Positions 1,133 to 47,440 are shown, counted from the first letter of the stretch. The stretch: 64,000 bases of DNA from a virus (IMGVR_UViG_3300030117_007605:2677-66676); one strand, 5' to 3'. Notes: generated by a model not told the origin, from the sequence alone. Program-made: numbers and translations.

Positions 1133-2059
1133 ATGAAACTTATAATAGAGAACTGGCGTGATTACCTTACTGAAAGCAAAGCTGAGACATTACATCTTAT
1201 TGCGCAACCTTATGAACTTACTAAAGATTATTTGACATTTGATGAGTTGCTTACTGACCTTAAGGGCGAATTCAAAATTGAAGCGGGTAGGGGTGTATTT
1301 GACTTACCTGAAGTTAAAGAAAGATTGCTGAGTAACCTTAAGTCTCGCATAAATTTCGGTCGGTTATTGCCTTTCTTTATGGGTCAACCTTATCCAAAAG
1401 AAGTTGAATTAAAAGACCGTCCTAAAACGAAAGGTGTTATTATTGGCGTCCCAGTTTTTCTCAAAAATCCGATGCCTGAAGGTGTGCCTTCCAAAACTGC
1501 AAGGTTTGCTCAGAGCAGGGGCAAAAAAGGTCATGGTGCTTTAGATATTGTTGGCAAAGAAGGTCTTCCAGTTTATGCTGCTGGTGCAGGGAAAGTTGTT
1601 AGTGTTACCCACACCTCAACTTGGATGAAAAGCGCCAAGCGTATTGCAAAATACTGGTTAGGACAGGAAGGCGAATTTGCTGATTGGTTCCGAAGCAAAG
1701 TTAATCTTAAAAACATAACCCTTGATGTTGATGGGTGGGAATATCTTCGCGGTATTTTACTTAGAGGCGGTGATCCCAAAAACAATATATTCCGCAATGC
1801 GCCTGGAAATGCCAATTATAAAGCAGGCGCTTATTTGAATATTCAACATAATAAGTTCTTTGGTGGAACCATTATAACAAAGTATATGCACCTTAATGAA
1901 ATTGTTGTTTCAAAAGGCGCTTTTGTTCAAACCGGGCAGATCATTGGCAAAAGCGGAAATACATCGGTTGTAACTTCCCGTGATCACTTGCATTATGCTG
2001 TATTTGATGAGGGTAAAAGGGTTGATCCTGAATTGTATACTGTTGGCTTAAAGCGATAG
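1133..2059 (+). CDS. M23-type peptidase with predicted capsid-targeting leader
   Basis: This 308-residue protein carries the zinc ligands of the M23 (lysostaphin/LytM) endopeptidase family: H134-x3-D138 in KGHGALDIVG and the H285-L-H287 pair, with H253 in KYMHL also in place. M23 enzymes cut peptide cross-links in peptidoglycan. Residues 1-14, MKLIIENWRDYLTE, match the leader seen on several neighbours and end in L-T-E, the kind of site used by T4-type prohead proteases. I infer packaging in the head and delivery to the host envelope, though a tail-associated lysin is also possible. An insertion of about 80 residues (160-240) splits the catalytic domain. AGGGG at 1120-1125 supports the start. 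Confidence 0.85.
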   Translation: MKLIIENWRDYLTESKAETLHLIAQPYELTKDYLTFDELLTDLKGEFKIEAGRGVFDLPEVKERLLSNLKSRINFGRLLPFFMGQPYPKEVELKDRPKTKGVIIGVPVFLKNPMPEGVPSKTARFAQSRGKKGHGALDIVGKEGLPVYAAGAGKVVSVTHTSTWMKSAKRIAKYWLGQEGEFADWFRSKVNLKNITLDVDGWEYLRGILLRGGDPKNNIFRNAPGNANYKAGAYLNIQHNKFFGGTIITKYMHLNEIVVSKGAFVQTGQIIGKSGNTSVVTSRDHLHYAVFDEGKRVDPELYTVGLKR

Positions 2060-2070
2060 ATTCATTCTAC

Positions 2071-2412
2071 TTATTCCTCTGAGGAGTCAATCAAATATTG
2101 GATTGCTGCTTCTAAGAATTCAATGTTATCTTTGAAATAACCTAACCCTACATTACAATTATTGCATAATAAACCTCGCACTTTTCCGGTTGAATGGCAA
2201 TGATCTACTTTCCATCCACCTATACCTCGTGGTTCATTTGTCCCGCATATCTTACATTTATTATTTTGGCTCTCCAACATTCTATCATAATCATCGGTAG
2301 TTATGCCATATTTGCGGGTTAGTTGTTTAGATTTAATCTCGTTCTTGTTTAAACGGTTATACAATTTGCGTCTATTCTTTCTGCGCTCTGCCCGTGCGTC
2401 GTAATTACTCAT
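2071..2412 (-). CDS. HNH / endonuclease VII-like nuclease
   Basis: The 113-residue product has the layout of recombination endonuclease VII-type HNH proteins: C53-x2-C56, the catalytic VDHCH box (D70, H71, H73), and C83-x2-C86 in LLCNNCNVGLGYF. These bind zinc and cut DNA. Free-standing copies in phages are often homing endonucleases. It is inserted against the direction of its neighbours, between two leader-tagged genes, which fits a mobile gene. Upstream on its own strand TATAAT lies six bases before the ATG and no Shine-Dalgarno sequence is seen. Confidence 0.88.
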   Translation of the reverse strand: MSNYDARAERRKNRRKLYNRLNKNEIKSKQLTRKYGITTDDYDRMLESQNNKCKICGTNEPRGIGGWKVDHCHSTGKVRGLLCNNCNVGLGYFKDNIEFLEAAIQYLIDSSEE

Positions 2413-2418
2413 GGTTCT

Positions 2419-2424
2419 ATTATA
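2419..2424 (-). promoter_or_regulatory. -10-like TATAAT six bases before an ATG
   Basis: On the minus strand TATAAT is followed by AGAACC and then the ATG of the HNH gene (2412). A start site about six bases after the box would put the mRNA end at or next to the ATG. No clear TTGACA lies upstream. Confidence 0.4.
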
Positions 2425-2502
2425 CCAAACCTAAAAATTTTCTTAATCGCGCTTCGCGCTCATTCAAAAAAAACCGCGCCCCCATTTTCTCAGATTTTAA
2501 CA

Positions 2503-2515
2503 CTATTTACTATAT
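2503..2515 (+). promoter_or_regulatory. CTAnTTAT-like motif (putative late promoter), copy 2
   Basis: CTATTTACTATAT differs from the copy before 1133 at two positions. It ends 19 bases before ATG 2535, with AGGAG in between. Confidence 0.4.
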
Positions 2516-2534
2516 CGCAATTAGGAGCATATAA

Positions 2535-3056
2535 ATGAAAGAGTTATTAAAGGAATGGAAACAGTTTATTAACGAGGGTGAGCGCGGTGATCGAATTCGC
2601 TCAATTGCAGATAAAGTTGCGCGAGCATCTGATGCAGAGCTTACTAAGATGGCTGGTGATCAACTTGTAAGCTGCAAAGATCGTTCAAATTACCTTGACA
2701 ACCCAAACAGTGGTTACCAAAAAATGGTTAATGAATATGTTAGAGCCATGATGTCGGGTGACAGCGCACTGGCTTCCGGTAAGTTGAGAATGATTGGGGA
2801 GTTTGTTAAGGAACTTTACTGTAATCCTCAGCCGGAAGTTGATGCAAAAGGCATTGCTGATGAGTTTCTTGGTTTATTAATGGGGACTGTTGCTGGTATC
2901 AAAAGCGCAGAAAGAGGTTCCTGTGTTGCGCCAACTATTCAAGGCATTGTACCTGATAAAGTTAGTGCCGCTGTAAAGATTGTAATTGAGGAAAGTATAG
3001 ATATGATTATGGCAGTTGGCAAAGGGGCTTACAAGTGCCCCATAAAGAAAAAATAA
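2535..3056 (+). CDS. leader-tagged hypothetical protein, predicted head cargo
   Basis: The 173-residue protein begins MKELLKEWKQFINE, which aligns without gaps to the leaders at 1133 and 11109 (W at 8, basic residue at 9, aromatic at 11, Glu at 14) and ends in an I-N-E cleavage-type site. The rest is largely helical and contains three well-spaced cysteines (SCKDRS, LYCNPQ, GSCVAP). No family is recognised. A Shine-Dalgarno AGGAG sits seven bases before the ATG, and a strong terminator follows, so it is probably a one-gene unit. Confidence 0.7.
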   Translation: MKELLKEWKQFINEGERGDRIRSIADKVARASDAELTKMAGDQLVSCKDRSNYLDNPNSGYQKMVNEYVRAMMSGDSALASGKLRMIGEFVKELYCNPQPEVDAKGIADEFLGLLMGTVAGIKSAERGSCVAPTIQGIVPDKVSAAVKIVIEESIDMIMAVGKGAYKCPIKKK

Positions 3057-3073
3057 GTTTTTAAACTCTATTT

Positions 3074-3108
3074 TACCCCCGTAGCAAAAACTGCGGGGGT
3101 ATTTTTTT
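3074..3108 (+). terminator. intrinsic terminator after 2535-3056
   Basis: TACCCCCG and CGGGGGTA form the core of a stem of about 11 pairs (one G-T pair) around a CAAAAA loop, followed at once by a run of seven T. This is a textbook rho-independent terminator. Confidence 0.92.
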
Positions 3109-3122
3109 GAGATTTTGTTTTA

Positions 3123-3135
3123 CTACTTATTATAT
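3123..3135 (+). promoter_or_regulatory. CTAnTTAT motif abutting a start codon, copy 3
   Basis: CTACTTATTATAT is identical to the copy before 1133, but its last two bases are the AT of the next gene's ATG (3134). No Shine-Dalgarno sequence is present, so a transcript started from this motif would be leaderless. Confidence 0.45.
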
Positions 3136-3928
3136 GCGAATTACCATAGACAAATTAAAACAAATCATAAATGAGGAAGTCAAAAACCTGAGCAAACAGC
3201 CACCTGCTGATGCTTCAAGAAAAGCTGCTGTCTCAGAAAGACAAGAACGTGGATTATTAGCTGCTATTAATGAGTATGCATCAATTGATAATCCGATCTC
3301 TGTTCAAGCCGGTCCAACAACAATTGAAAATGTGCAATCATCTTATAAAGTTGAAGGCTGCAATAAATTTGGGTGTGAAATGTATACAGATGTCGTCTTT
3401 GTTACAAATGGTGGTGAGATCAAAGTTTCATGTAAGGGAACCTCAGCCCCCTCTATTGCTGGCGGTGGACTTCTTGGTGCTAAGGCTCTGATCCCAGATA
3501 TCATTCCAAACTTCTTAGAAGCTGCTGAAAAATGGTATTTGGATAATGGTTATAAAGAAGGGGATTTAATTCCTGATTTATATGGTAAATTAAACGATTC
3601 CGATAAAAAGCTCGCTGTCGTTGGTACATTAGAAATTGGTGGACCAATTGATTATATGTATGTTGGACCAATGGATGTTGAACACACATTTGAAGATAAC
3701 CTATTAAAATTGAATGGTGATTTAATTGAAGCTTATGAATATGCTGATAACCACGATATTTATTTCAGGATTCGCAAGCGTCGTAATGACCAGCCTTTTG
3801 CCCCTGGTGAAAAAGACCGTCACGGTTATCCAATTATTTTAGGGCGTTCTCCAAGCAAGGGCGACACTGGACGAAGAGTTGTTTTTGTGAATAAAGTCCC
3901 AAAAACCAGAGATATTGTTGAATTTTAA
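3134..3928 (+). CDS. leader-tagged hypothetical protein (264 aa), predicted head cargo
   Basis: I place the start at ATG 3134 rather than at the upstream TTG (3107), because 3107 lies inside the terminator's T-run and because the product then begins MRITIDKLKQIINE, ending in an I-N-E site like the other leaders. It lacks the Trp of the main form and is a variant class. Residues after about 40 contain beta-rich segments with a close Cys pair (EGCNKFGCEMY) and an ISCKG-like Cys later. No family is recognised. The start codon has no Shine-Dalgarno sequence; the CTAnTTAT motif directly abuts it. Confidence 0.7.
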   Translation: MRITIDKLKQIINEEVKNLSKQPPADASRKAAVSERQERGLLAAINEYASIDNPISVQAGPTTIENVQSSYKVEGCNKFGCEMYTDVVFVTNGGEIKVSCKGTSAPSIAGGGLLGAKALIPDIIPNFLEAAEKWYLDNGYKEGDLIPDLYGKLNDSDKKLAVVGTLEIGGPIDYMYVGPMDVEHTFEDNLLKLNGDLIEAYEYADNHDIYFRIRKRRNDQPFAPGEKDRHGYPIILGRSPSKGDTGRRVVFVNKVPKTRDIVEF

Positions 3929-3941
3929 GGAAAAACTACAA

Positions 3942-4571
3942 ATGTCAGAATACGAACAACACCTAGCTAATATATTATCTGCTATAGAATATGAATTCCC
4001 AGACTTTAAGATCGTTGATAAACGTGAATCAAAGCTTATGCGTTTGCTATCTAAGTTATTGTTTTTTAATAAAAATTTTATGTCTCGTTATATCACTGTT
4101 ATTGGGAATACTGTTTATGTTCCTACAAAAGAGTGGGTTAAAGAAGATGCTTATAGAGCTTTATCAGTCTTTTGTCATGAATGGGTTCACATGAAAGACA
4201 ATAAGTCTTTGAAATTATTATTTAAATTGCTATATCTCTCACCCCAAATTTTTTCGTTCCTCGCCATACTCGGATTTTGGAACCCTTTATGGTTCTTATT
4301 TTTGATTTGCCTGCTGCCTGTGCCTTCACCAACCCGCTCTGAACTTGAGATGCGCGGATATGCTGTGACTATGGCTGTTAATTGGTGGTTGTTAGAGAAA
4401 AAGCCTAACTATGAATGGTATTCTAAGCAATTTACTTCTTCAGCTTATTACTGGATGGATCCTTTTAAGAAAGATGTGCTTAAAGATCTTAAAAAGGAGT
4501 TTGAGCGTATCCAAAAGCAAGAATTAAGAGATCATGAAAAACAGATTCTTGAAATTTTGATTGGTGAATAG
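3942..4571 (+). CDS. membrane-anchored HExxH metallopeptidase-like protein
   Basis: The start is placed at ATG 3942, 13 bases after the previous stop and preceded by AAGGA; an in-frame TTG at 3915 is less likely. The product is 209 residues. H79-E80-x2-H83 in FCHEWVHMKD is a zinc peptidase motif, and Glu in SELEMRGYA (residues 134-136) is a plausible third ligand. Between them lies a very hydrophobic hairpin (about residues 100-127), so the enzyme should be embedded in the inner membrane. The substrate is unknown. It has no capsid leader, unlike the genes on both sides. Confidence 0.7.
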   Translation: MSEYEQHLANILSAIEYEFPDFKIVDKRESKLMRLLSKLLFFNKNFMSRYITVIGNTVYVPTKEWVKEDAYRALSVFCHEWVHMKDNKSLKLLFKLLYLSPQIFSFLAILGFWNPLWFLFLICLLPVPSPTRSELEMRGYAVTMAVNWWLLEKKPNYEWYSKQFTSSAYYWMDPFKKDVLKDLKKEFERIQKQELRDHEKQILEILIGE

Positions 4572-4582
4572 CTATTTATATC
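4572..4582 (+). promoter_or_regulatory. CTAnTTAT motif abutting a start codon, copy 4
   Basis: CTATTTATATC runs straight into ATG 4583, with the same 11-base distance from its C to the ATG as in copies 3 and 7 and no Shine-Dalgarno sequence. Read on the other strand it contains TATAAATA, the T4 late promoter core, so an antisense promoter is the alternative reading. Confidence 0.4.
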
Positions 4583-5245
4583 ATGAAAGAAATCCTAACA
4601 GAATGGCGAAATTATTTGGTAAAAGAAGAGAAAGATGACCCTTTAAAAGAGTTGGCACTTTTTTTATCTGATGAGCTTAAAGAAAGTGGAATCGCTGCGA
4701 GTCCCTCAGTATTGCTGAAAGTTTTGAAGCTAATAGACCCAACAATTCTTAATAAAATTGAAATATTAATTTATAAACAAATACAAAGTTTAAAGTACAT
4801 TTTTAAAACCAAGCCCGTTCTTATTTTGTTAAAAAAAGCTGGATTTGCTAGAAAATTAGCTCAAGGCAGTTATAATGCCGCAGCAGGAACTTTATCAACT
4901 ATATTTTCATTGGTTTTTATTATTTTTGAAGCCGCTCAAATGTTCGGACCTGTTTTTTATCAACAGTTTATCGATCCCAGTGCTCGTTTTAATATCTCAT
5001 TAAAAAGATTAAGAGAGGCAGAAAGAGATTTAAAAGTTTTAGGTCCTGATAGGTTTAAGAAAAAGTATGCAGGTGACGAAATGGCTAAACTTGCTGCTGA
5101 TTTTATGACTGCTGGATTTCAAGTTGAAAGAATTAGAGAGTTAAGACCTGAACTTTATAAGTTAGTTTCAGAAGAGGCTGGTGGTTTTGACAGTTTAATG
5201 GCTAGTCTTCGTAGATTGATTTTTGCATCTGAAAGTTTAGATTAA
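4583..5245 (+). CDS. leader-tagged membrane-active hypothetical protein, predicted head cargo
   Basis: The 220-residue protein opens with MKEILTEWRNYLVKE, one residue longer than the neighbouring leaders but with the same Trp-Arg and Tyr-Leu pattern and a V-K-E cleavage-type end. A helical region follows, then one clear hydrophobic segment (about residues 108-128, with SLVFIIFEAAQMFGPVF), then a charged helical tail. If delivered with the DNA it could insert in the host membrane. No family is recognised. Confidence 0.65.
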   Translation: MKEILTEWRNYLVKEEKDDPLKELALFLSDELKESGIAASPSVLLKVLKLIDPTILNKIEILIYKQIQSLKYIFKTKPVLILLKKAGFARKLAQGSYNAAAGTLSTIFSLVFIIFEAAQMFGPVFYQQFIDPSARFNISLKRLREAERDLKVLGPDRFKKKYAGDEMAKLAADFMTAGFQVERIRELRPELYKLVSEEAGGFDSLMASLRRLIFASESLD

Positions 5246-5247
5246 TT

Positions 5248-5304
5248 TAAGGTTCCATAAAGAGGAATGGTATTAAAATAATTAAATACGTTCGGTGAAC
5301 CTTA
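5248..5304. repeat. 8-base inverted repeat between convergent genes
   Basis: TAAGGTTC (5248-5255) and GAACCTTA (5297-5304) are exact reverse complements about 41 bases apart, bracketing the gap between two converging genes. There is no T-run, so a terminator role is only possible. Confidence 0.35.
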
Positions 5305-5592
5305 GACTCTTGTGTCTTTAAAGGCTAATTCAGCGCGAAGTTTATCTTCCATGTATTTTTGTTTCATAGTTTGTAAGCCTTCGTCAATTTTATCGAGTGC
5401 TTTTTCAAGTTTTTCTTGGTTTTCTTCGGCTAGTTCTTTATTTTTCTTTACTACCTCAACAACATTTTTATTTAAATCATCATAACGAGATTGAAAGTTT
5501 CCTTTCATTGTATGATTGCTGATAAGTAAAGATAGTGTCCACATACCAAGTATGCCGTATTCAACTAATCCATTTAATGATCCAGCGTCCAT
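5302..5592 (-). CDS. small protein with N-terminal membrane helix and coiled coil
   Basis: The 96-residue product has a hydrophobic helix at residues 8-25 (LVEYGILGMWTLSLLIS) and then a long charged coiled coil (about 40-85, ending KQKYMEDKLRAEL). GGAGG eight bases before the ATG supports the start. This outline is shared by BhlA-type holins and by small spanin-like or membrane-tether proteins, but no conserved motif decides. It is divergent from the lipoprotein pair that follows. Confidence 0.6.
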   Translation of the reverse strand: MDAGSLNGLVEYGILGMWTLSLLISNHTMKGNFQSRYDDLNKNVVEVVKKNKELAEENQEKLEKALDKIDEGLQTMKQKYMEDKLRAELAFKDTRV

Positions 5593-5648
5593 TCATGTAT
5601 CCTCCTATAAAACGAACAAAGTAATTAGTTTTGTAGTTCATATATAAA

Positions 5649-5660
5649 CTAGTTATTTGT
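5649..5660 (+). promoter_or_regulatory. CTAnTTAT motif abutting a start codon, copy 5
   Basis: CTAGTTATTTGT lies directly before ATG 5661 (12 bases from its C) and no Shine-Dalgarno sequence is seen. It overlaps the short palindrome AACTAGTT. Confidence 0.35.
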
Positions 5661-6446
5661 ATGAGAATTATTACAAAAATCACATCAATTTTACTTATTT
5701 TTGTTTTTTTGGCGACCACACCAGCGATTGTATTAGGATCGCAGGGACAATTACTTCAAGCTGAACCAAGTAAAGTTGCTATGCAAGCGATTGGACTTGC
5801 CAAACATTACTATGCCCAAGGCAGATTTGAAAAAGCTGCTGAATTATTTATGGAAGCATACAAATTAGACTCTCGTGTTGAGTTTATGTTTAATGCTGCT
5901 AGAGCATATCAAAGAGCCATTGAACTATCGAAAGCAAAAGATTTATTTAATCGTTGTGTTAAAACAAAAGGAGCTTCAGCCGTTGTAAAACAAAAAGCTT
6001 CAATTTATCTTCGTGAAATCCAGAATATGGAAAGAGCTTTATCTAAAGCAAAAAATGAGGGTAAAAAGAAAGCAGTTAAAGTTGTGGTAAAACCGAAGCC
6101 CAAGCCAAAAAAGAAAGTTGTTCTTAAAAAGTCTACTTGGAAACAGACTAGTGGTGCCATCTCTTTAGCTGGTGCTGCTTTAGCAGGTGTTGCTGGCGGT
6201 TGGCTTTTGATTACTTCTTATGAGTTGTCTAAAAATGCTGATGATAAGGCTGCTGATCTAGATATTGGCTTTGATGAGTATCAGCAGGATAAAGATAAAG
6301 CTGAAATGTATAATGTTCTTGGCTGGTCTTTATCAGGTATCGCTATCGCTGGCGCTGTGTTTGGTTTTTGGGGTTTATCCTCTGATAATTCGAAGGTCAG
6401 TCTCGCACCTACTGGAAATGGTGCTACCCTTATGGTGAGATTCTAA
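5661..6446 (+). CDS. secreted TPR protein of deltaproteobacterial type
   Basis: The 261-residue protein has a signal peptide (about 1-26), a tetratricopeptide region (about 45-115; YAQGRFEKAAELFMEAYKLD followed by a second helix pair), a Lys/Pro-rich linker (about 133-160), and two hydrophobic helices (about 165-188 and 222-240). The tail ends in a beta-like APTGNGATLMVRF segment. The same architecture and ending are common in cell-envelope proteins of Myxococcota and relatives. TPR domains bind partner proteins. The gene overlaps nothing but is only one base from the next lipoprotein gene, so the two form a unit. It looks acquired from a host. Confidence 0.75.
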   Translation: MRIITKITSILLIFVFLATTPAIVLGSQGQLLQAEPSKVAMQAIGLAKHYYAQGRFEKAAELFMEAYKLDSRVEFMFNAARAYQRAIELSKAKDLFNRCVKTKGASAVVKQKASIYLREIQNMERALSKAKNEGKKKAVKVVVKPKPKPKKKVVLKKSTWKQTSGAISLAGAALAGVAGGWLLITSYELSKNADDKAADLDIGFDEYQQDKDKAEMYNVLGWSLSGIAIAGAVFGFWGLSSDNSKVSLAPTGNGATLMVRF

Positions 6447-6447
6447 T

Positions 6448-7065
6448 ATGAGAAAATTTATTATTTTATTTTTTATCCTGTTCGCAGGTTGTGTAGATCG
6501 TCCTTACGACGAGGCTTACTTTGTTGGTGAAGGCGAAGATGTGTTTGAACCCGACGAGGATATCATTGAGCCTGAAGAAGACATCGAAGAAGATGTTGTC
6601 GAGGATACATACGAGCCTGAAGAGGATGTCGTAGAAGATGTTATTGAACCAGAAGAAGATATTGAACGGGACACTGCTTGGGAGTTTGATGCTATAGAAG
6701 AAGATGTTGTTTTAGTTGACGCCGATGATGAGGATACTTGGGTTGATACTTTTGTTCCAGAGGACACTTGGCAACCAGAGGATACATACGTTCCACAAGA
6801 TACTTGGCAACCTCCGCAGGATACTTGGACGCCGCCACAAGACACCTATGTTCCACCCAAGGACACATATCAACCTCCGCAAGACACCAACAAGCCAGAG
6901 GATACAAAACCACCATTAGGACCGGGAGAGTGTCCAAAGGATTGTAAAACTTGGTTTGATGGTTGCAACACCTGTCAGTGTAATGATGGTAAGATCGGCG
7001 GCTGCACTAAGATGGGCTGTCCAACCAAGAAAGAACCATACTGCAAAAAGCTACACGGCACTTAA
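6448..7065 (+). CDS. acidic-linker lipoprotein with pacifastin-like Cys-rich end
   Basis: The signal peptide ends in the lipobox FAGC, so the 205-residue protein should be a lipoprotein. A long linker of Glu/Asp-Val-Pro repeats (about 28-90) passes into repeats of the DTWQPPQDTW kind (about 95-150). The last 45 residues contain C162-x10-C173-N-T-C176-Q-C178-x2-G-x4-C186-T-x3-C191, the pacifastin (LCMII) protease-inhibitor pattern, plus C166 and C199. I infer a surface-displayed knot that may inhibit a serine protease. Such lipoproteins are typical of deltaproteobacteria. The stop overlaps the stop of the converging transporter gene by four bases. Confidence 0.75.
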   Translation: MRKFIILFFILFAGCVDRPYDEAYFVGEGEDVFEPDEDIIEPEEDIEEDVVEDTYEPEEDVVEDVIEPEEDIERDTAWEFDAIEEDVVLVDADDEDTWVDTFVPEDTWQPEDTYVPQDTWQPPQDTWTPPQDTYVPPKDTYQPPQDTNKPEDTKPPLGPGECPKDCKTWFDGCNTCQCNDGKIGGCTKMGCPTKKEPYCKKLHGT

Positions 7066-7505
7066 AACTTGCCAACAAATCTAGCAATCTGTTGCACAAA
7101 CGGTAGAAGAGTAATTGCCATTAAGGTGTTCACGCCAGTGTGAATAAGCGCAATCTGCCTTGTGGCACCTGTGGGCATACCGTCTGACACAAAGAAACCA
7201 GCAAGCCAGATAGTTCCAGTTGTTCCAATGTTGGCTCCAAGCACCGCTGCAATAGCAGAAGGCATGGGAAGCACACCTGTGGATACAAGAGCCACAATGG
7301 TGGTTGTGCTTAGAGAACTGGATTGCCAGAGAATGGTGCAGACAATGCCACCAACGAAAGCCCACAAGGGGTTGGAGACAAACGATTGTAGATACTCTGG
7401 ATTGCCGAGACTTTTGACACCGCCAGCAAAAGTCTTCAAGCCAAGATAAAAAATAACTAAACCGACGATGATTTTGAAATAAGGATTATTAATAAGTGTT
7501 TCCAT
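7062..7505 (-). CDS. half-size Na/phosphate cotransporter (PF02690-type)
   Basis: The 147 residues form four or five membrane helices. The family signature is clear: W60-QSSS-LSTT (Gln61 to Ser64) and G90-ANIGTT, followed by QIALIHTGVN, which matches the A-H-x2-F-N helix of the family. NptA-type carriers move phosphate with sodium and normally hold two inverted repeats with two QSSS motifs; here only one repeat is present, so a working carrier would need a dimer. The start ATG has a motif-like ATACTTAT upstream and no clear Shine-Dalgarno sequence. The likely role is extra phosphate uptake during infection. Confidence 0.85.
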   Translation of the reverse strand: METLINNPYFKIIVGLVIFYLGLKTFAGGVKSLGNPEYLQSFVSNPLWAFVGGIVCTILWQSSSLSTTTIVALVSTGVLPMPSAIAAVLGANIGTTGTIWLAGFFVSDGMPTGATRQIALIHTGVNTLMAITLLPFVQQIARFVGKF

Positions 7506-7546
7506 AATGACATAAGTATGTCTGCCAAAACCAATAGAATGTTACA

Positions 7547-9619
7547 TTATTGCAACACGATTGTCTTACCCTTTGCTGATAGCGATTTAATAATAGGTGA
7601 TAATTTATTTTTGCTTGACTGCATAAAAACTTCGACTTGCAAAAATCTACCCTTTACGCCTTTAAGTTTATAAGGAAACTTGTTAGGTGGGAAAGGACCA
7701 ACCTTTTTTGACCACGGTGCAGTATCCATTAGTTTTAAACTATCGGCTACTCTATAGCGGAGATCAATAAAAGAATCTTCTGGTAAAATAAAGTCAACAT
7801 CAATCTGTTCCCACTCGGTGGTGGATTTAGTCTCTGCGACAGTGCCACTCCAACCTCCATAGCCGAATGTATGCTGGAAGTCGCCCTTGGGTGCTGTGTA
7901 GTTATGCAGAGTGTAGCCTGTCATATCTGAATAGGTATAAGGACCAGACCCAACAGGGTATTCACCTACGACAGAATTAGTTTTTGGGTTGACCTTCGTG
8001 GCTGTTGCTTTTTGTTGGTTCACAGCCCAAACATAACCATCGTAATCGACTGCAATGCCCACAGGGTATCTACCGCTGCCTAATGAGATGTGCTGCATCA
8101 CAGTAAGAGTAATAACATTTATTTTTGCAACTGAGGATGTTGTATCAAGAGCAACATAAACATGTCCGTCGTTAGAGGTTGCGATACCACGACTTCTCTG
8201 ATTGTGTTTAACAATAGACCATTGTTTTGTTATAGGGTCATAGCGAGAAGATGAAGTCGTTGTGTCTGCCACCCAAATGCGACCAAACATATCTACATTA
8301 ATACCGTAAGGTGAACCACCACCCTTTCCTACATTCTGAACGGACTTTGTTTTAGGGTCAACTCGTAGAAGAGCAGAGCAGCCACGACCAGCGATCCAAA
8401 TAATGCCTTTTTGGTCGATAACAAGCCCGTAAGGGTTGCAGCCAATGTTTATTTGGTCTACTGACTGTCCAGCATTTGGTTCAAGTCTGCGGAGTCGTTT
8501 ACTATTCCAGAAGCCTATCCAAGCATGGTTGTCTTTATCTACACCAGCAGCACGAGCCACAGTTTTACCATCTGGGTTTACAATAAACTGAATACACTCG
8601 TCATTAGAAACAACGCTCTTGCCAGAGGAGGTATCAATAGAACCATTTCCGTTCTTATCTACACAATCTTTTTTATTTACTCTTATCTTCGCAACTGAAC
8701 CATCACCTCGACAACCTACCCAACAGTCACCATTGAGGTCCACAGAAGTGCGAGAAGGGTTAGAACAAACCTTATAACGACCTTCCTCTTTCCCAGTTTT
8801 AGTGTCTAGTTTTGAGACAGTACTTTCGGAGGAGTTTGCAATCCAGATGTGGTTAAGATTACTAGAAGTTTTGCCGATATCTAACTCTATGTAACCATTA
8901 GCATTTATTTTAAGACCCTTTTTGTTACCGACATCAAAAGGCACACCAAAGTCCGGTCCTATTTTTTGTTTGACACAAGAAAGATCGCAAGTCCCACAAG
9001 AAGAGAGGACACCCTCATCGATGAGTCCATTACAGTTATTATCTTTACTATCGCAGAATTCAGGCTCAGGTAGTTTTTCACCAGTACACATTCCCCAATA
9101 ACCGGATTTACAGATTTGCACGCCAGCTTGGCAAATGCCTTTGCCTATCCACTGTGGTTGACCTGAATAGCAGTTTGCTGCATTTGACTTACAAGGACAG
9201 CCTTCCCAGTTTTGTTTTGAGCAGTCGGGGCAGATGGAGGCAAAGTTTGGGTTGTTATCGTCGCAGTCTCCACCTTTGATACAGCCGAGCCCATAACCAT
9301 CACCATCATTGTCGATGCAGGTTTTCACAGGGGTAGTGTCGGGTTTAACCGTATCGGGTGCAGGGACAGTATCGGTTGTATCGATACCGGTATCGGATGT
9401 TGTATCAGGAGTTATATCAGGTTTAGACGCGGTGTCCTCTACAAGAGTCGTTGTGTCTGGTAGGGGAACAGTATCTTCAACAATGTCTTTTAGGTCGGGT
9501 ATAACATCTGAATTTGGGGTACCAAGCCCAGCATCAACAAGTGTGATTGCCTTATAGGTCGGCGCTTTGGAGCAGCCACCAAGGATTAGTAAAATAAATA
9601 ATAGTTTTCGCATAGTCAT
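7547..9619 (-). CDS. large lipoprotein: Asp/Thr linker, MopE-like motifs, beta-propeller
   Basis: The 690-residue protein has a lipobox (ILGGC) and then a linker of repeated PDT/TDT units (about 25-95). Next come two MopE-type Cys/Asp motifs: DNDGDGYGLGC with GGDCDDNNP, and CDSKDNNCNGLIDEG. Then follows a six- or seven-bladed propeller of the Vgb/NHL kind (about 240-560), with recurring WIA, WVA and GYVWAV strands. A jelly-roll-like end of about 120 residues closes the chain. It should be displayed on the outer membrane. The combination is a hallmark of Myxococcota/Bradymonadota surface proteins. Possible roles are superinfection exclusion or surface remodelling; neither is shown. ATG 9613 is an alternative start. 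Confidence 0.8.
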   Translation of the reverse strand: MTMRKLLFILLILGGCSKAPTYKAITLVDAGLGTPNSDVIPDLKDIVEDTVPLPDTTTLVEDTASKPDITPDTTSDTGIDTTDTVPAPDTVKPDTTPVKTCIDNDGDGYGLGCIKGGDCDDNNPNFASICPDCSKQNWEGCPCKSNAANCYSGQPQWIGKGICQAGVQICKSGYWGMCTGEKLPEPEFCDSKDNNCNGLIDEGVLSSCGTCDLSCVKQKIGPDFGVPFDVGNKKGLKINANGYIELDIGKTSSNLNHIWIANSSESTVSKLDTKTGKEEGRYKVCSNPSRTSVDLNGDCWVGCRGDGSVAKIRVNKKDCVDKNGNGSIDTSSGKSVVSNDECIQFIVNPDGKTVARAAGVDKDNHAWIGFWNSKRLRRLEPNAGQSVDQINIGCNPYGLVIDQKGIIWIAGRGCSALLRVDPKTKSVQNVGKGGGSPYGINVDMFGRIWVADTTTSSSRYDPITKQWSIVKHNQRSRGIATSNDGHVYVALDTTSSVAKINVITLTVMQHISLGSGRYPVGIAVDYDGYVWAVNQQKATATKVNPKTNSVVGEYPVGSGPYTYSDMTGYTLHNYTAPKGDFQHTFGYGGWSGTVAETKSTTEWEQIDVDFILPEDSFIDLRYRVADSLKLMDTAPWSKKVGPFPPNKFPYKLKGVKGRFLQVEVFMQSSKNKLSPIIKSLSAKGKTIVLQ

Positions 9620-9625
9620 ACCTCT

Positions 9626-9631
9626 AGTATA
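9626..9631 (-). promoter_or_regulatory. -10-like TATACT six bases before an ATG
   Basis: On the minus strand TATACT is followed by AGAGGT and ATG 9619. AGAGG can also act as a Shine-Dalgarno sequence for ATG 9613, and a second TATAAT lies further upstream at about 9636-9641, so this site is ambiguous. Confidence 0.3.
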
Positions 9632-9643
9632 ACCATTATAACA

Positions 9644-9997
9644 CTATTTCCAGAAAATTTGAATACCAACAAGCGTAAATGCTAATAGCGAGCTTACAAT
9701 ATTTTTTGGAGTAAGTGCTGATTCATTCATAAGGAACCAAGTTAAGAGTGGGAAACAGATATAGGACAGTCCAAAACTTAGTAGTCTTGATGCCCAGACA
9801 GTACCGAGTGCTTCATAGGACCATTTTGATCCCCACCAGAAAGTAAGTGATACTGGGAAAGACCAAATCAGAGCAGTTATAACTGGTTTATCTTTCCACC
9901 AATCCCAGACAAACTGAGAGTTGTTAAGAAACCAAGCAAATATCTGACCCAAGATAAGCATTAAAGAACCAACAAGGATAAGTGTTGTTTTTGACAT
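9644..9997 (-). CDS. four-helix integral membrane protein
   Basis: The 117-residue product has four hydrophobic helices (about 4-25, 38-55, 65-85 and 97-115), Trp-rich loops (FVWDWWKDKP, FWWGSKWS) and almost no soluble part. The size and helix count resemble SMR/DUF486-type small membrane proteins, but no signature residue fixes a family. The ATG overlaps the stop of the upstream basic-protein gene (TAATG on the minus strand), so the two are coupled. Confidence 0.6.
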   Translation of the reverse strand: MSKTTLILVGSLMLILGQIFAWFLNNSQFVWDWWKDKPVITALIWSFPVSLTFWWGSKWSYEALGTVWASRLLSFGLSYICFPLLTWFLMNESALTPKNIVSSLLAFTLVGIQIFWK

Positions 9998-10344
9998 TAT
10001 TTTTTCTTATTTAATCGCTTTGTTTTTTCTTTTGAAGCTTCTTTTCTCTTTGTAGCATAATCAAATGCTTTTTTCAAGCGTTTTTTCGTATCTGGATTTT
10101 TAGCATTTTGGTAGGCAGCACGGACTCTTTGATGAATCAGATTAATAATCTGAGATTGTCTTTTGTGTGCCTTATCTTTAAAACTTTTTTTAGCTAAGGT
10201 TTTTTTAATATCTGTGACAGTTTTAAATTTCACAGACACAGTGTCTTTAGGATTTTCATCTGTGTATAAACGCCTGCCAGACCCTTTTGGTTTTTTACCA
10301 GTTCCTACTTTGGGGTCTTTTCTTTCCACAATAATACGAATCAT
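9997..10344 (-). CDS. small, strongly basic conserved phage protein
   Basis: This 115-residue protein opens MIRIIVERKDPKVGTG and continues KKPKGSGRRLYTDENPKDTV. I have an impression of this motif from proteins of uncultured marine phages, possibly a DUF6321-like family, but cannot confirm it. The whole chain is Lys/Arg-rich, especially the tail KEASKEKTKRLNKKK, which suggests nucleic-acid binding, perhaps condensing DNA in the head. The start codon abuts a CTAnTTAT motif on the minus strand and has no Shine-Dalgarno sequence. Confidence 0.65.
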   Translation of the reverse strand: MIRIIVERKDPKVGTGKKPKGSGRRLYTDENPKDTVSVKFKTVTDIKKTLAKKSFKDKAHKRQSQIINLIHQRVRAAYQNAKNPDTKKRLKKAFDYATKRKEASKEKTKRLNKKK

Positions 10345-10355
10345 ATAATAAGTAG
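10343..10355 (-). promoter_or_regulatory. CTAnTTAT motif abutting a start codon, copy 7 (minus strand)
   Basis: Read on the minus strand this is CTACTTATTATAT, identical over 13 bases to the copies before 1133 and at 3123. As at 3123 the motif's last AT is part of the ATG (10344-10342). Identity of motif and of geometry on the opposite strand argues that orientation toward the gene matters. Confidence 0.45.
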
Positions 10356-10356
10356 T

Positions 10357-10596
10357 TCAAGAATTTGCTCTTTCATCCCAACAGGTAGGGCATACTAAAG
10401 CTTTTGTTTCCCCTTCTGCGACAACCATCCATTTCATTGCCATTTCCCGACTCTTCTTATTAAAATCTTTATTACATAAAGAACAATTGTCAGGTAAGAA
10501 GATATTACTTATTTTATTTTGTAGTTCTTTCTCAGCTTGTTTCTCATCTTTTAATGTTTTCTTTCTTTTAATCTTTCTTTTCAAGTTATTACTCAT
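10357..10596 (-). CDS. small zinc-finger-like protein
   Basis: The 79-residue product has a basic N-terminal half (LKRKIKRKKTLKDEKQAEKE) and then two Cys pairs, C-x2-C in NCSLCNK and C-x2-C in VCPTCWDE, about 32 residues apart, so it probably folds around one zinc ion. It may bind nucleic acid. It lies 12 bases upstream of the basic-protein gene on the same strand; the shared direction suggests a unit, although that gene has its own upstream motif. Confidence 0.6.
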   Translation of the reverse strand: MSNNLKRKIKRKKTLKDEKQAEKELQNKISNIFLPDNCSLCNKDFNKKSREMAMKWMVVAEGETKALVCPTCWDERANS

Positions 10597-10631
10597 AAAT
10601 TAATCGTAACATAATTTATAGTCAGTGTTAA

Positions 10632-10644
10632 CTATTTATTTTTA
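10632..10644 (+). promoter_or_regulatory. CTAnTTAT motif with separate Shine-Dalgarno, copy 8
   Basis: CTATTTATTTTTA lies 28 bases (from its C) before ATG 10660, with GAGG in between. The preceding AA gives AACTATTTATTTT, repeated exactly at 13546-13558. Confidence 0.4.
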
Positions 10645-10659
10645 GTTGAGGAATTAATA

Positions 10660-11112
10660 ATGAAATTAAGAGTAGTCATCAAAGAGGCAGTTGCACCAGA
10701 GGAAATAAGTGCTAGAAAACAGACTGCGATTCAAAATATAAACAATGAGTTGCGTGGCATAGACTTAGACACACTTGATTTACAGCAGTTGCAGGCTATT
10801 CTATCCTCAATTCAAGTTGCTAAAGGTGATCAGCCAGCAGAAAACCTTGCTTCCCTTGAAGAAAAAAAGAAAAAAGACGCAGTTTCAAAAAAAATCAGTA
10901 CATTAAGAGACGAAGGCAAACCACAAAACCAAGCAGTTGCTATTGCTCTTGATATGGAAAGGCGTGGTAAACTGAAAGAAGAAGAGGGTGATTGGTTTGA
11001 CCGTCTAATCAAATGGCTAACTGGAACAAAGGCAGGCAATACAGTTTTGGATACAGCGAATAGACGTCGCGGTGAAAATCAAGTTTCTTCGGCATATAAA
11101 GGAAAAAAATGA
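10660..11112 (+). CDS. small phage protein with QAVAIAL motif
   Basis: The 150-residue protein begins MKLRVVIKEAVAPEE, in which V-I-K-E could be another prohead-protease site, although the Trp of the typical leader is missing. Residues about 73-105 read KISTLRDEGKPQNQAVAIAL followed by DMERRGKL, a short helix pair found in many phage proteins and sometimes annotated in the DUF6496 group. A charged tail follows. Function is unknown. GAGG eight bases before the ATG supports the start, and its stop overlaps the kinase-like gene (ATGA), so the two should be made together. Confidence 0.65.
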   Translation: MKLRVVIKEAVAPEEISARKQTAIQNINNELRGIDLDTLDLQQLQAILSSIQVAKGDQPAENLASLEEKKKKDAVSKKISTLRDEGKPQNQAVAIALDMERRGKLKEEEGDWFDRLIKWLTGTKAGNTVLDTANRRRGENQVSSAYKGKK

Positions 11113-12053
11113 AATTATTACTTGAAAATTGGCGCAAATTTGTCAATGAGCAGGTCGATGCGACTGTTCCAGCCAAACCAGGCGCTAAAAAAGCCTTTCA
11201 CGATGCTGAAACAACTAAATTGGGTCAGAAAAAAGAAGATGCCCCACAAAAATTAGAGCCTATTGAACTTAATACGGCGATCCAAAAAGAAAATGCAAAG
11301 CAAATTTTTCTATATTACTTGGATGAAAAGAATGTCAGAGATATTTTTCAACTAGGATCTCTACCAAAAGATGGGCAGTTTAATAAAATGTTTGAAGAAC
11401 CTGCTAAGGTTAAGAGATTTATTGATCACATGGTTGCAGCAAATGACATTTTAGGTAAAAATAAGATTATAAAGTTTTTAGGAGCAGGTTCATTTGGCTT
11501 TGTAGTGTTGTTGGACAACAATCACGCTCTTAAAATTTACAGTGGATCGTTTGATCCGCTTGGAACTGACGATGTGATTGATCCAGATGCTAAAACTGAT
11601 AGAGAAAGATACCAAAAATCTCAAGAAAAAGCATTTGGTGGTAAAGGTGATATTGCAGACTTGCACATTTATGATGAAGGTGAGCTAAAATTACCTACTG
11701 ATCGCACTTGGTATTACGCTGAAATGCCTGAATTAATAAAACTTAGCTCACATATGCGCTTCGTACATAAAGACAAGGATATGGCGAAGGTTACAACCGA
11801 CTTAGACACGGAAATTGCTAAACTAAAATACATAGCAAAGGATGATGTTAACAATAAAACTGAAAGTAACATCGATGATGTTATAAAAGACCACGATATA
11901 ATCATTATGGACAAGGTATTTGCAGCAAATCTTTTAAATCAGCTAAGAAACATGTTAAAAACAAAGTCTTTTGAGCAAATTGAAGACGTTAGAGGGGCTA
12001 ATATTGGAATTATGCGAGGCAAAGAGCAAATTCCAGTGATTTTTGATTACTAA
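11109..12053 (+). CDS. leader-tagged protein kinase-like protein, predicted head cargo
   Basis: The 314-residue protein starts MKLLLENWRKFVNE, the clearest example of the leader, ending in V-N-E. After a charged linker comes a protein-kinase-type core: glycine loop GAGSFG (125-130), ATP-binding Lys142 in HALKIY, a hinge-like YYAEMPEL (202-209), a catalytic loop D293-V-R-G-A-N298 with the canonical Asp-to-Asn spacing, and the metal-binding Asp313 in VIFDY. The chain ends one residue later, so the activation loop and lower C-lobe are absent. I infer a compact kinase or pseudo-kinase delivered to the host. AAGGA precedes the ATG; the next gene overlaps by one base. Confidence 0.8.
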   Translation: MKLLLENWRKFVNEQVDATVPAKPGAKKAFHDAETTKLGQKKEDAPQKLEPIELNTAIQKENAKQIFLYYLDEKNVRDIFQLGSLPKDGQFNKMFEEPAKVKRFIDHMVAANDILGKNKIIKFLGAGSFGFVVLLDNNHALKIYSGSFDPLGTDDVIDPDAKTDRERYQKSQEKAFGGKGDIADLHIYDEGELKLPTDRTWYYAEMPELIKLSSHMRFVHKDKDMAKVTTDLDTEIAKLKYIAKDDVNNKTESNIDDVIKDHDIIIMDKVFAANLLNQLRNMLKTKSFEQIEDVRGANIGIMRGKEQIPVIFDY

Positions 12054-21534: not shown

Positions 21535-22682
21535 GTGCAGCAGCTAAATATGGTTCAGATAATGTGTCTTTGTGGACACCATCAGCCACTGGAAGCAACC
21601 CTTTAAATTCTGATATTGTTGCTTGGATTGATGCGGAAGATACTAGTGAGATGACAACTTTTACCGATTCCGGTCACTCCTATGTTGATGTCATAAAAGA
21701 TAAAATTAATGATATTAGTTTTGGTGCTCCCGCGAATTACCAACGTCCAAGATTTTCTAATGGTACAGACTCGTTGTTGATTAATAATAGAAATACTTTA
21801 CATTTCTGGGAAGCCAGCTTACAAAGCACGCCAGACACAGCATTGACTGCGACTTTAGATGCGTTCGATGGACACTTAGCAGAAATTAATGATCCAAGAT
21901 ATGCGTTTATGGTTTATAAACCAATAGATTATTATGGTGATGCCAATTTTCTTTATCATTATGGTGATAGTTTGACTGGTAAAGCTTATGGATTAGCCAT
22001 GTGGGTCACCGGCTCAGGGACTCTTACAAATACTAGTCATTACTATTACATGGCATCTTACGGCGGCGGCAAGAGATATTACCCAGATGAGTCTGACACA
22101 AATAGCAAATATTACAACAAGGGCGGTGTGCCCAATCTTGTTTATCACCAACACTCTGGCACTGGCGGATATCTAAGTAACGATGGTAATCAGACTGCCG
22201 CCAGTTATTCTGGTCTGACTTTAACTACAAATAACTTTAATCGGGATATGCAATTTTGGATTGGTGAAGAAATTGGCGGCGGTGGTCGCGGCATAGAGTT
22301 CCTCTTGGCTGAAATGATTATGATCACTGGTAGCTCGTTATCCGACGCAGACCGTCAAAGGGTCGAGGGATATTTAGCACATAAGTGGGGACTAACTGGA
22401 GATTTAGCCGGTGATCATCCTTATAAAAGTGCTGCACCAACAAACGGAATCTCCGTTGGTCCTACAGTGTATTTTGGTGATGATGATAAAGGCAGAATAA
22501 AAAACATAGATCCAGGTGGTTCACATAATGGACCTGTTTCTAATAGATTTAAAGCAATTAATTGTAACTATGGAAAAATTGGTGTTGATCAAGTCCCTTT
22601 CACACTACAACAACCTGGAGTTTTTTCTTTGAAAAGAAGAACAACTGCTTATCAAGTAACTCGTGGAGAGTCAAATGAATAA
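21531..22682 (+). CDS. LamG/concanavalin-like virion protein
   Basis: The 383-residue protein is beta-rich with many Gly, Ser and Tyr. Its diagnostic part is LAEMIMITGSSLSDADRQRV followed by EGYLAHKWGLTG and DHPYKSAAP (about 258-310). This ending is common to LamG-like jelly-roll domains of marine phages and planctomycetes that bind sugars. A fibre or head-decoration role is likely but unproved. Start and stop overlap both neighbours (ATGA at each end), placing it in the polyprotein operon. Confidence 0.7.
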   Translation: MSAAAKYGSDNVSLWTPSATGSNPLNSDIVAWIDAEDTSEMTTFTDSGHSYVDVIKDKINDISFGAPANYQRPRFSNGTDSLLINNRNTLHFWEASLQSTPDTALTATLDAFDGHLAEINDPRYAFMVYKPIDYYGDANFLYHYGDSLTGKAYGLAMWVTGSGTLTNTSHYYYMASYGGGKRYYPDESDTNSKYYNKGGVPNLVYHQHSGTGGYLSNDGNQTAASYSGLTLTTNNFNRDMQFWIGEEIGGGGRGIEFLLAEMIMITGSSLSDADRQRVEGYLAHKWGLTGDLAGDHPYKSAAPTNGISVGPTVYFGDDDKGRIKNIDPGGSHNGPVSNRFKAINCNYGKIGVDQVPFTLQQPGVFSLKRRTTAYQVTRGESNE

Positions 22683-25600
22683 AATTTTAAAAGAAGGCGG
22701 TAACATCTTCAAAAATATTGATGGTTATGCTGAAACAGTTCGTATTAAAAGAGAAGATGTAGATCCAACACTTGAGTGGCTTGAAGATATTTTAGGTGTG
22801 GACCTTGTTAACTTTAAATTGGGCACCACCGGCAGAAAAGAAACTTCCGGCGATTTGGATGTGGCGATTGATCAAGAAAAAGTCAATAAAGATGATTTAA
22901 TTAAAAAATTAATGAAATGGTTAAATGAAACCCATCCAGAACTTGAACTTGCTAATGCAGATACAAAAGAATTAAAGAAAAAAGTCAGACAGTGGATCGC
23001 TAAGTCAGGTACGTCTGTTCATTTCAAAACACCAATTCGTGGTGATGAATCCAACGGTTTTGTTCAAACAGACTTGATGTTTGGCGATCCCGATTTCATG
23101 CTTTGGGCTGTTAAAGGTGAATCAGGTCCAAGCGAATATCGTGGTGGAGATAGACAGAATTTATTAAATGCCATTGCAACGCAGCGTGGATACGCTTGGA
23201 GCGCCTTTTTCGGTTTAAAGGATAGAGAGACAGGTGAAAGGACATATGACCCTCAGACGGTCGTAGACCGCGTTCTAGGGGCAGGTCACAAGCCAGAAGA
23301 TTTTGATAGCATTTATACTCTATTTGATATTCTTGCTGATAAAGAAAAATACCCTGACGACGTTTACGAGGCAATCCGTGAAAAAGCAGGTTTTGATTTT
23401 CCTCATCGGGATGAAAGTTTAGAGGAAGCAAAGAAGATTGAACCGCGCATTCAACACGCTGAAGATTTAATTTTCTTTGAGGGTGCTGCGGGTGCTTTGA
23501 GAGCATTGCGTGCTCTTCAGAAGATGAACGATCCAGAGGGTCGTCCTGAGACATCCGTCAAATGGGATGGTTCCCCGGCTGTTATTTTTGGTCGCGATGT
23601 GGATGGAAACTTTATTTTTACTGATAAAAGTGGTTTTGGTGTAAAATCTTATAAAGGGAAGGTTGGTTCTGAAGAAGAAATGGAACAAATGTACCGTTCC
23701 CGTGCTGCTCGTGCTGCTAAAAAGATGGGTATGACACCAGATGAAGTTTTTGAAAAGAGATATTCCAAGATTTCACCTTTAATGCAAAAAGCATTTAGAC
23801 TTGCAGAAAAATCAGTTGATCCTGACCATAGAGGTTATTTCTTTGGTGAAGTTCTATACTTTGACAAACCAGAGATTGAAGATGATAAGTTTGTCTTCAA
23901 ACCAAATATGGTAAAGTATAAGGTTAATAAAGACTCAGAAATGGGTAAAAAGATTGAAAAATCAGATGTAGGCATTGTGCTGCACTTGAAGAAAGATGTT
24001 GAAACTCTTGAAAATCAGCCACTAAATTTTGACGGTATGTCACCAGATCCAGACATTTTGTTTTTTGGTAAAACCTTTGTTGAGAAGCCCGTCGCCGTTA
24101 ATGATGGCGAGATTGAAGCAATTATTAATTTAGTTGAACAAAATATGTCAAAATTAGATGAGTTTTTTAATGCTGGGCGTCTAAAGAAGCTCGGCATTTC
24201 AGATTTACCAAACTTATTCTATGGATACTTAAACAGCAAAGTTGACACAGGCTTAGAAAACTTGGGTGAAGACTTTAATGATTGGCTTGTCAGCAAAGGC
24301 AGTGTCTCAGATAGCAAAAAACTAAACGTAAAAAATTACATTTCTGAAAATCTTCAAACATACACTTTAATTTGGGATGTTGTCACCAGAATAATGCAGA
24401 TTAAAGACGGCATTATTGGAAGCATTGACACTCAAGGAGGCTTGCCATTTAGTCAATCCCTCGGTGGTGAAGAAGTTGGTGAAGGTTATGTTCTATCTGA
24501 TGATGGTAAATTAATCAAATTGGTTGATAGATCTAAATTCACAAAAGCAAATCGTTCTGCGGTAAGAGAACAGGGCGAACTTGATCCTGATTATGAAGAT
24601 GATTTAAGCGATCAGATCGATGATATTGAGGACGCAGAGACCCATGTATTTATTCCCGGTGGCTTTAAACCACCACACAAAGGGCACTTATCTTTACTTC
24701 TTCAAGCCGTCAAAGAATATCCAGATGCTATTGTCCATATTACAAGCGGACCAACAAAAAGAACCGCTGGTGATTTAGAAGTAAGTGCTGAACAAGCAAA
24801 GCAAGTTTGGGAAAAATATATTAAAGCTTATGGAATTAATAATAAAGTAGAACTTGACTATTTTGATCGTTTCAAGACGAATAGAAAGAAGAAAGACGGT
24901 TCAGTCATAACATCTTCAAGCCCTTTCTTAAGAATTGGTCTCAGGATGGAAAACGAAATAACACCAACCTCAAAGATTGTCGCTGTTTCATCTGAAGATG
25001 AACATATAAATTTTGTAAAAAATGCAGTAGATTATCTAAATGATAATAAAGGTAAAGATTTTGAGTTTGAGCCATTAAAGGCTGGTAAGGTTGAAGTTGA
25101 ACCCGGCGTTAAATTTTCTGCCACTCAAATGAGAAAGGCGATTAGCGAAGGCGACTTTGATACATTTAAGGCTTTTATGCCAGAAAAACTTTCTGATGAT
25201 GAAGCAAAAGAAGTATTTGAAATGCTTGGGGGCGTTATGGGTGAAGCATCTGCAATGGGTGCTGGCGATGTCAGCGGTGGATTTGTCCCCCCTTTTTCTT
25301 CGGATGAAAATCAAAACGAACAAACTATTTATAAGGAACAATTACGTCAAACAATAAAACGTCTTGTCAATAAAGAGAGAAACAATATGCTAAATGAAGA
25401 AAAACAATTAAGAGAACTTATCAGACAAATCATTAAGGAAAATGATACACCAACCAAGTCAACTGGGTTGAATAAATTAATTCAAGCATTAAAGATTATT
25501 CTTCCAACTGTTGAATCTGGTTATAAATCACTAACCACTGATAAAGAACAGAGAGACTCTTTCAAACAACACTACCTTAAGGCTATTATTGATACACTCT

Positions 25601-26148
25601 CTCCTCAAGATGCGATTAGAGCCGCATCTGGTGGTGAGTCCACCGGCATGCTTGGTGGTTCTGCTCTTGAAGAACAAGATGATATTGAAGTCAACGTCAC
25701 AGAAAATCCCGCTGATCTAAGTGATAAAATTGAAGATGTCGAAGATGAATTGGACACTCAAATTAATAAAGACGCTGGAGTTACACTTAAAGATATTGAA
25801 GGTAAAAAAACAGATATCCCACTACCACAAATTCCTGGTTTAGACGAAACTGGTAGAGATGAATCCGTTGATGTGTATAAGAAAACTGTAGATGCTGTAA
25901 CTAGAAACTATAGAACACTTCACAATGAAGAAGATAGGAAAGAATTTAAAGAATTTTTAGTAACTAATCTTTTATTATATTTTGATAAATTTGAAAATGA
26001 TATTTCAGCAGAGTTAACACCTGTTACAACACCTGAGTATGAAAAACAAACAGCAGAGAAAGCTCAGTTTGCTGCTAAAGGTGAAGAAACAGTAAATGAA
26101 AGAATTGAAAAAGCAGTTAGAGAGACATTAAAGAATAGTTTATTCTAA
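22675..26148 (+). CDS. 1157-aa polyprotein with three nucleotidyl-transfer-type domains
   Basis: I start at ATG 22675 (GGAGAG four bases upstream); an in-frame GTG lies at 22663. Domain 1 (about 45-140) is a Pol-beta-type nucleotidyltransferase: GTTGRKETSGDLDVAID with D60 and D62, and D133 in VQTDLMF. Domain 2 (about 255-475) has K296-W-D-G299 in VKWDGSPAVIFG, E392 in YFFGEVLYF and DVGIVLHLKK (431-440), in the order of ligase motifs I, III and IV. Domain 3 (about 655-835) has H668-K-G-H671 in GGFKPPHKGHLSLL and SATQMRKAI (815-823), as in cytidylyl/adenylyltransferases. MLNEE (905-909) is a likely processing site. I recall domain 2 as a phage family labelled DUF6267, unconfirmed. Confidence 0.8.
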   Translation: MNKILKEGGNIFKNIDGYAETVRIKREDVDPTLEWLEDILGVDLVNFKLGTTGRKETSGDLDVAIDQEKVNKDDLIKKLMKWLNETHPELELANADTKELKKKVRQWIAKSGTSVHFKTPIRGDESNGFVQTDLMFGDPDFMLWAVKGESGPSEYRGGDRQNLLNAIATQRGYAWSAFFGLKDRETGERTYDPQTVVDRVLGAGHKPEDFDSIYTLFDILADKEKYPDDVYEAIREKAGFDFPHRDESLEEAKKIEPRIQHAEDLIFFEGAAGALRALRALQKMNDPEGRPETSVKWDGSPAVIFGRDVDGNFIFTDKSGFGVKSYKGKVGSEEEMEQMYRSRAARAAKKMGMTPDEVFEKRYSKISPLMQKAFRLAEKSVDPDHRGYFFGEVLYFDKPEIEDDKFVFKPNMVKYKVNKDSEMGKKIEKSDVGIVLHLKKDVETLENQPLNFDGMSPDPDILFFGKTFVEKPVAVNDGEIEAIINLVEQNMSKLDEFFNAGRLKKLGISDLPNLFYGYLNSKVDTGLENLGEDFNDWLVSKGSVSDSKKLNVKNYISENLQTYTLIWDVVTRIMQIKDGIIGSIDTQGGLPFSQSLGGEEVGEGYVLSDDGKLIKLVDRSKFTKANRSAVREQGELDPDYEDDLSDQIDDIEDAETHVFIPGGFKPPHKGHLSLLLQAVKEYPDAIVHITSGPTKRTAGDLEVSAEQAKQVWEKYIKAYGINNKVELDYFDRFKTNRKKKDGSVITSSSPFLRIGLRMENEITPTSKIVAVSSEDEHINFVKNAVDYLNDNKGKDFEFEPLKAGKVEVEPGVKFSATQMRKAISEGDFDTFKAFMPEKLSDDEAKEVFEMLGGVMGEASAMGAGDVSGGFVPPFSSDENQNEQTIYKEQLRQTIKRLVNKERNNMLNEEKQLRELIRQIIKENDTPTKSTGLNKLIQALKIILPTVESGYKSLTTDKEQRDSFKQHYLKAIIDTLSPQDAIRAASGGESTGMLGGSALEEQDDIEVNVTENPADLSDKIEDVEDELDTQINKDAGVTLKDIEGKKTDIPLPQIPGLDETGRDESVDVYKKTVDAVTRNYRTLHNEEDRKEFKEFLVTNLLLYFDKFENDISAELTPVTTPEYEKQTAEKAQFAAKGEETVNERIEKAVRETLKNSLF

Positions 26149-38173: not shown

Positions 38174-38182
38174 TGGGTGATA

Positions 38183-40479: not shown

Positions 40480-40483
40480 GTAC

Positions 40484-42799: not shown

Positions 42800-42800
42800 T

Positions 42801-46035: not shown

Positions 46036-46045
46036 TTGAAACACT

Positions 46046-47434: not shown

Positions 47435-47440
47435 CAAGGG

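Follow-up and report, generated by a model that had tools for sequence, protein, structure and literature searches.

In phage T4, only a few proteins are known to be carried in the head. T4 IPII and IPIII start with MKTYQEFIAE; according to a review (PMC9026906), residues 4 and 7 of this leader are the main determinants of targeting, and residues 8 and 10 those of processing. T4 IPI–IPIII and Alt have in common with the leaders described below an N-terminal position, a pair of aromatic residues spaced three apart ahead of [LIV]-x-E, unrelated cargoes, and a gp21-type protease (PMC5694885, PMC3012670); the T4 tag is removable, whereas removal of the present leader is only inferred. IPI acts as an inhibitor of a restriction enzyme, and Alt is an ADP-ribosyltransferase that is packaged (PMC9958956, PMC5694885); anti-restriction and ADP-ribosyltransferase types also occur among the present cargoes. 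In phage P1, the N-terminal signal of DarB likewise directs an anti-restriction protein, as well as a reporter, into the head (PMC9024508), but no common sequence has been found among the Dar proteins, and there is no separate T4-type scaffold. Internal head proteins of phiKZ and SPN3US are cut by the prohead protease after x-x-E (PMC5694885); however, their propeptides are mostly far longer, share no tag, and follow the cut rule AxE or SxE. Polyvalent proteins, which are predicted to be injected with the DNA, have an overlapping repertoire of ART, GNAT, NUDIX, and peptidase domains (PMC5512222), but these domains are fused in one giant protein, whereas the present cargoes are mostly separate, each with its own tag, and the polyvalent criterion of several disparate effector domains per polypeptide is not met. 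Our literature search yielded the T4, P1, and phiKZ-type precedents and no description of the present leaders. The system reported here is known in kind and new in form, scale, and cargo.

The window, a 64,000-nucleotide stretch of viral DNA, comprises positions 2677–66676 of an 85,285-base record. The original prediction had listed five genes with leader-like N-termini, all of which were found in place (Table 1). We interpret the leader as an extended capsid-targeting sequence of the T4 type, whose cargoes would be loaded into the head, cut by the protease, and injected as early effectors; in the absence of virion proteomics, this interpretation rests on sequence comparison, and we regard it as very likely.

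Table 1. Leader-tagged genes and candidate short leaders in the window
Feature	Gene	Strand	Leader	Leader position	Remark
M23 peptidase gene	1133..2059	+	MKLIIENWRDYLTE	1133–1174	Predicted cut after Glu14
173-aa protein, family unknown	2535..3056	+	MKELLKEWKQFINE	2535–2576	
264-aa protein, family unknown	3134..3928	+	MRITIDKLKQIINE	3134–3175	Second-class leader
220-aa protein, one hydrophobic stretch	4583..5245	+	MKEILTEWRNYLVKE	4583–4627	Ends V13-K-E15
Protein with kinase-like motifs	11109..12053	+	MKLLLENWRKFVNE	11109–11150	
Candidate short leader	10660..11112	+	MKLRVVIKE/A	10660–10686	Putative cut after E; weaker evidence
Candidate short leader, nucleotidyltransferase/DUF6267 protein	22675..26148	+	MNKILKE/GGNIFK	22675–22695	Putative cut after E

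Among the five tagged genes, only that at 1133 had a Pfam match (Peptidase_M23, E = 1.1e-17), which bears out the earlier assignment of its cargo as an M23 peptidase; a Pfam search of the 2535, 3134, 4583, and 11109 products gave no family matches, and no relatives of the 2535 protein were found in viral contigs. The 11109 product had been called kinase-like, and the motifs GAGSFGFVV..ALKI and DVRGANIG..IFDY are indeed present; however, because its predicted structure was too poor (pLDDT 41) and a search for a solved relative found none, the kinase label stays at the motif level. Two further short leaders are probably present in the window, and a relative of the 10660 protein in G055, a phage syntenic with the window, starts with MKVRFVIKE. 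Between two tagged genes, on the opposite strand, lies an HNH/endonuclease VII-like gene (2071–2412, minus strand) that is kept in G055 and could aid turnover of the adjoining tagged genes. Elsewhere in the window, genes for glycosyltransferases and for sugar-nucleotide and sialic-acid-type synthesis form a long run with a radical-SAM gene (32129–48924), apparently a surface-sugar module, and the gene for a ClpP-like protease adjoins that for a PhoH-like protein whose N-terminal part is of the PIN type (28319–30293).

The distribution of the leader was examined beyond the window. IMG/VR was scanned with a degenerate DNA form of the main leader pattern, MKxLLxxWRxFLxE (class A), and the resulting counts are lower bounds. 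Among the matches listed, the leader begins an open frame in nearly all. After removal of the leader, a first set of at least 140 distinct proteins could be sorted into 67 unrelated groups, and all loci, including those fetched later, gave at least 259 proteins in 110 unrelated cargo families, encoded by uncultured T4 relatives. The leader was located 1–4 residues past the start codon in 271 of the 276 strong matches, and the remaining five were also at gene starts. When nine phage proteomes (397,203 positions) were scanned with a profile of leader residues 4–14, 33 of the 34 matches at the threshold of ≥12 bits began within residues 1–30 (11.7% expected), and the 34th reflected a mis-assigned start and is hence N-terminal as well. 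No leader matches were found in approximately 980 kb of viral DNA picked by an unrelated 14-mer. A search by an independent method with the 11109 protein recovered three orthologues (77–91% identity), in which the leader is kept, and 17 other loci, most of which align in the first 15–24 residues only and carry unrelated cargoes (protein kinases, HAD-like proteins, a NUDIX protein, and others). The similarity of the leaders is far above chance, and the proposal that the leader is limited to the N-termini of diverse proteins in this phage and its relatives was upheld by the profile scan, the number of cargo families, and the 11109 search. A looser pattern, [hydrophobic]xx[hydrophobic][LIVMF]xE ending at residues 8–20, was 2.1–4.8 times background in these proteomes versus 1.6 in control DNA; this enrichment is real, yet the control indicates that a general N-terminal effect accounts for part of it. 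Up to about 18 tagged genes occur in one genome (G056). In cultured phages, tblastn of the joined leaders, a weak test, gave no matches for the second class described below; the only ones for class A were weak and either to DNA polymerase or unannotated.

When the leaders are aligned with that of T4 at the cut site, W8, F/Y11, L/I/V12, and E14 coincide with T4 residues 4, 7, 8, and 10 at identical spacing. The T4-type capsid-targeting reading had been put forward on a looser likeness; the conserved residues turned out to be those tested by mutation in T4. In 22 proteins for which positions 12–14 had not been selected, the Glu of [LIVMF]xE fell exactly at residue 14 in 18, and a ten-residue leader in the T4 register, MKKWKQFLKE, is present on two unrelated cargoes. 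Against this, the leader is unlike that of T4 outside the key positions, and [LIV]xE is a short and common motif. The present leader further differs in having 14 residues rather than 10, with four extra in front and Trp at the first aromatic position, in the diversity of its cargoes, many of which are enzymes, and in the existence of a second, Trp-less class. The 3134 leader had been taken for a degenerate variant that had lost its Trp, but it belongs instead to this equally widespread class (class B, MKITKxQLKQIIKEE), which was found on at least 166 proteins in 136 unrelated groups and occurs together with class A in the same contigs. Only class A has aromatics at the positions of T4 residues 4 and 7, whereas class B is aliphatic there. 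Class B carriers are often tandem small proteins, and their contigs, which reach 293 kb, encode the prohead protease (L193, L210, L262, and L186). A third type, M..F[DN]L[KR]xFLxE[NK]LTxNS, was seen on four proteins of the cultured Flavobacterium phage immuto (NC_055915; L412 and L410).

The T4-type prohead protease (Peptidase_S77) was detected in 19 of the 20 tag-bearing contigs of ≥140 kb, versus one of four random control contigs of that size (P = 0.008; the control is small). The protease gene that the original prediction had suggested looking for is thus present in relatives but not in the window's own record, which contains no protease or capsid genes. In G055, which is 77% identical to the window at 11109, the protease lies approximately 9 kb past the point where the window's record ends; truncation of the record would explain the missing protease and capsid genes, although this is not proven. 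The cut rules implied by the leaders also have counterparts in relatives: in eight phages, the site of the major capsid protein aligned with E65 of T4 gp23 reads L[KRQ]E/[AST] or similar, with the presumed cut after E, and an LLTE close to the start is conserved in most of the protease sequences. The head cluster of G009 contains a leader-tagged acetyltransferase-like gene a short distance upstream of the protease. T4-type late promoters (TATAAATA) were sought upstream of tagged genes and not found, and late expression therefore remains unshown. We also considered the leader as a mimic of the major capsid protein propeptide (LLxKW..LLEG), but this was unconvincing, with a profile rank only in the top 0.1–0.2% of sites.

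Since several tagged genes stand in tandem, the shared stretch might act at the nucleic-acid level, as an element at the start of translation, or might be a cassette of gene starts that was copied recently. In unrelated cargo genes, however, the same leader residue is encoded by different codons in 48% of pairs versus 57% expected from the codon use of those genes, and the bases upstream are not conserved past a weak ribosome-binding bias. Because the codons vary nearly as expected, the leader is conserved as protein and not as DNA: selection acts on the leader peptide, and a DNA or RNA element is rejected. One cargo (77–80% identity) moreover carries five different leaders, MKKLMDRWRVFINE, MSYIRRWKNFLSE, MHQARQWYNFINE, MLREWRAFLNE, and MEHFPKWNRFINE, which have essentially only W..F[LI].E in common, and an element or cassette can hardly be entertained. 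Leaders are exchanged on other cargoes as well: a cargo 98% identical between two phages has a class A (Trp) leader in one and a class B (MKITK-type) leader in the other, a HAD-like protein begins with MKLLIENWRKYLKE in one phage and with the T4-like MNNKYKQFLNE in another, and GGN[IV]F proteins are preceded by MKLIMETWRKFVAE, MGKILLE, MNKILNE, or MNKILKE (the 22675 gene of the window), or else start as M-GGN[IV]F. The join between leader and cargo in homologues lies directly after the Glu of the predicted cut, and the expectation that the leader lies outside the cargo fold is met by its being swapped or missing in homologues; in a structural model of the SAM lyase family, it is a separate helix ending at residue 13. 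The leader is a modular N-terminal tag that swaps between unrelated and homologous cargoes and matches the functional residues of T4, and in every respect that sequence comparison can address it conforms to an extended capsid-targeting sequence of the T4 type; carriage of foreign cargo is represented by natural swaps between homologous cargoes, without an experiment. The same observations bear on the possibility that the leader is never removed and serves as a helix that localizes proteins to another site in the infected cell, such as the membrane, the replication site, or a phage compartment. An amphipathic helix is predicted, and the presence of tagged proteins in virions is untested; nevertheless, this explanation is quite unlikely, given that Glu at residue 14 is kept without having been selected for and that homologues start directly after it, and it would leave both the match to T4 and the prohead protease unexplained.

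It is also conceivable that the tagged proteins are packaged and cut but act mostly in head assembly or DNA condensation rather than on the host, as T4 core proteins are likewise targeted and cut, and as class B leaders also occur on small proteins beside the prohead protease. The nature of the cargoes makes this very unlikely. In the commonest group (L111 and 18 relatives), Pfam S-AdoMet lyase scored above the cut-off in three of the five members tested and DUF3293 in the other two, and the model of the SAM lyase cargo most resembled T3 SAM lyase, at a modest E-value of 1.5e-3; SAM lyase is an enzyme first discovered in phage T3, which uses it to counter restriction (PMC7877911). A giant structural protein of the Flavobacterium podophage elemo (L519, 2041–12228) also contains the SAM lyase/DUF3293 domain. 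Further cargo families are ART-PolyVal, GNAT (acetyltransferase), NUDIX, C39, M23, RNase_T, and AAA_33, and a protein kinase match fell just under the Pfam cut-off. Judged by these domain matches, the cargo includes proteins of the counter-defence type. In addition, four of the five tagged genes of the window lack an orthologue in G055, compared with 19 of the 68 other genes (P = 0.03), a pattern that one would expect of arms-race genes and that runs contrary to a role in head assembly.

No more than one domain family is matched by most tagged proteins, and a few cargo domains are also found within larger proteins. Such domains occur inside proteins of 635–1655 aa (L112, L018, and L110), some related cases having [LIV]xE at the join. 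Where a cargo lies inside a longer protein or behind another N-terminus, [LIVMF]xE was present within six residues upstream in 16 of 31 junctions versus 16% of random positions. Several of these junctions are related to each other and some are near the N-terminus, and the data only hint at precursor proteins that are cut inside the head.

For the head-loading tag that we favour, we propose the following mechanism. The 14 residues of the leader would fold as an amphipathic helix, and its aromatic side, with W8 and F/Y11, would dock the protein in the scaffolding core of the prohead. A gp21-like prohead protease would then cut after [LIV]-x-E14, and the mature protein would remain in the head with the DNA and be injected at infection. 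Once in the host, the cargoes may act early as effectors that counter its defences and aid its takeover. It is inferred, rather than shown, that the leader binds the core and is actually cleaved and that the tagged proteins are present in virions and injected; what each cargo does is likewise inferred.

We lean towards the view that large aquatic T4-like phages possess a general protein-delivery system with two interchangeable leader classes, recognizable by sequence, and approximately 10–20 different, fast-replaced effector enzymes per phage, some of which would be made as precursors with several domains and cut at [LIV]xE sites inside them. The leaders are new candidate head-loading tags, and the tag explains why many short unknown genes in these genomes have one common start. 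If the tag means the same here as in T4, any protein behind such a leader would be predictable as injected. This would provide a list of hundreds of phage effectors that act ahead of phage gene expression, including SAM lyases, ADP-ribosyltransferases, kinases, acetyltransferases, and many of unknown function, and, if the delivery system is real, the injected arsenal of these phages would be readable directly from metagenomes.
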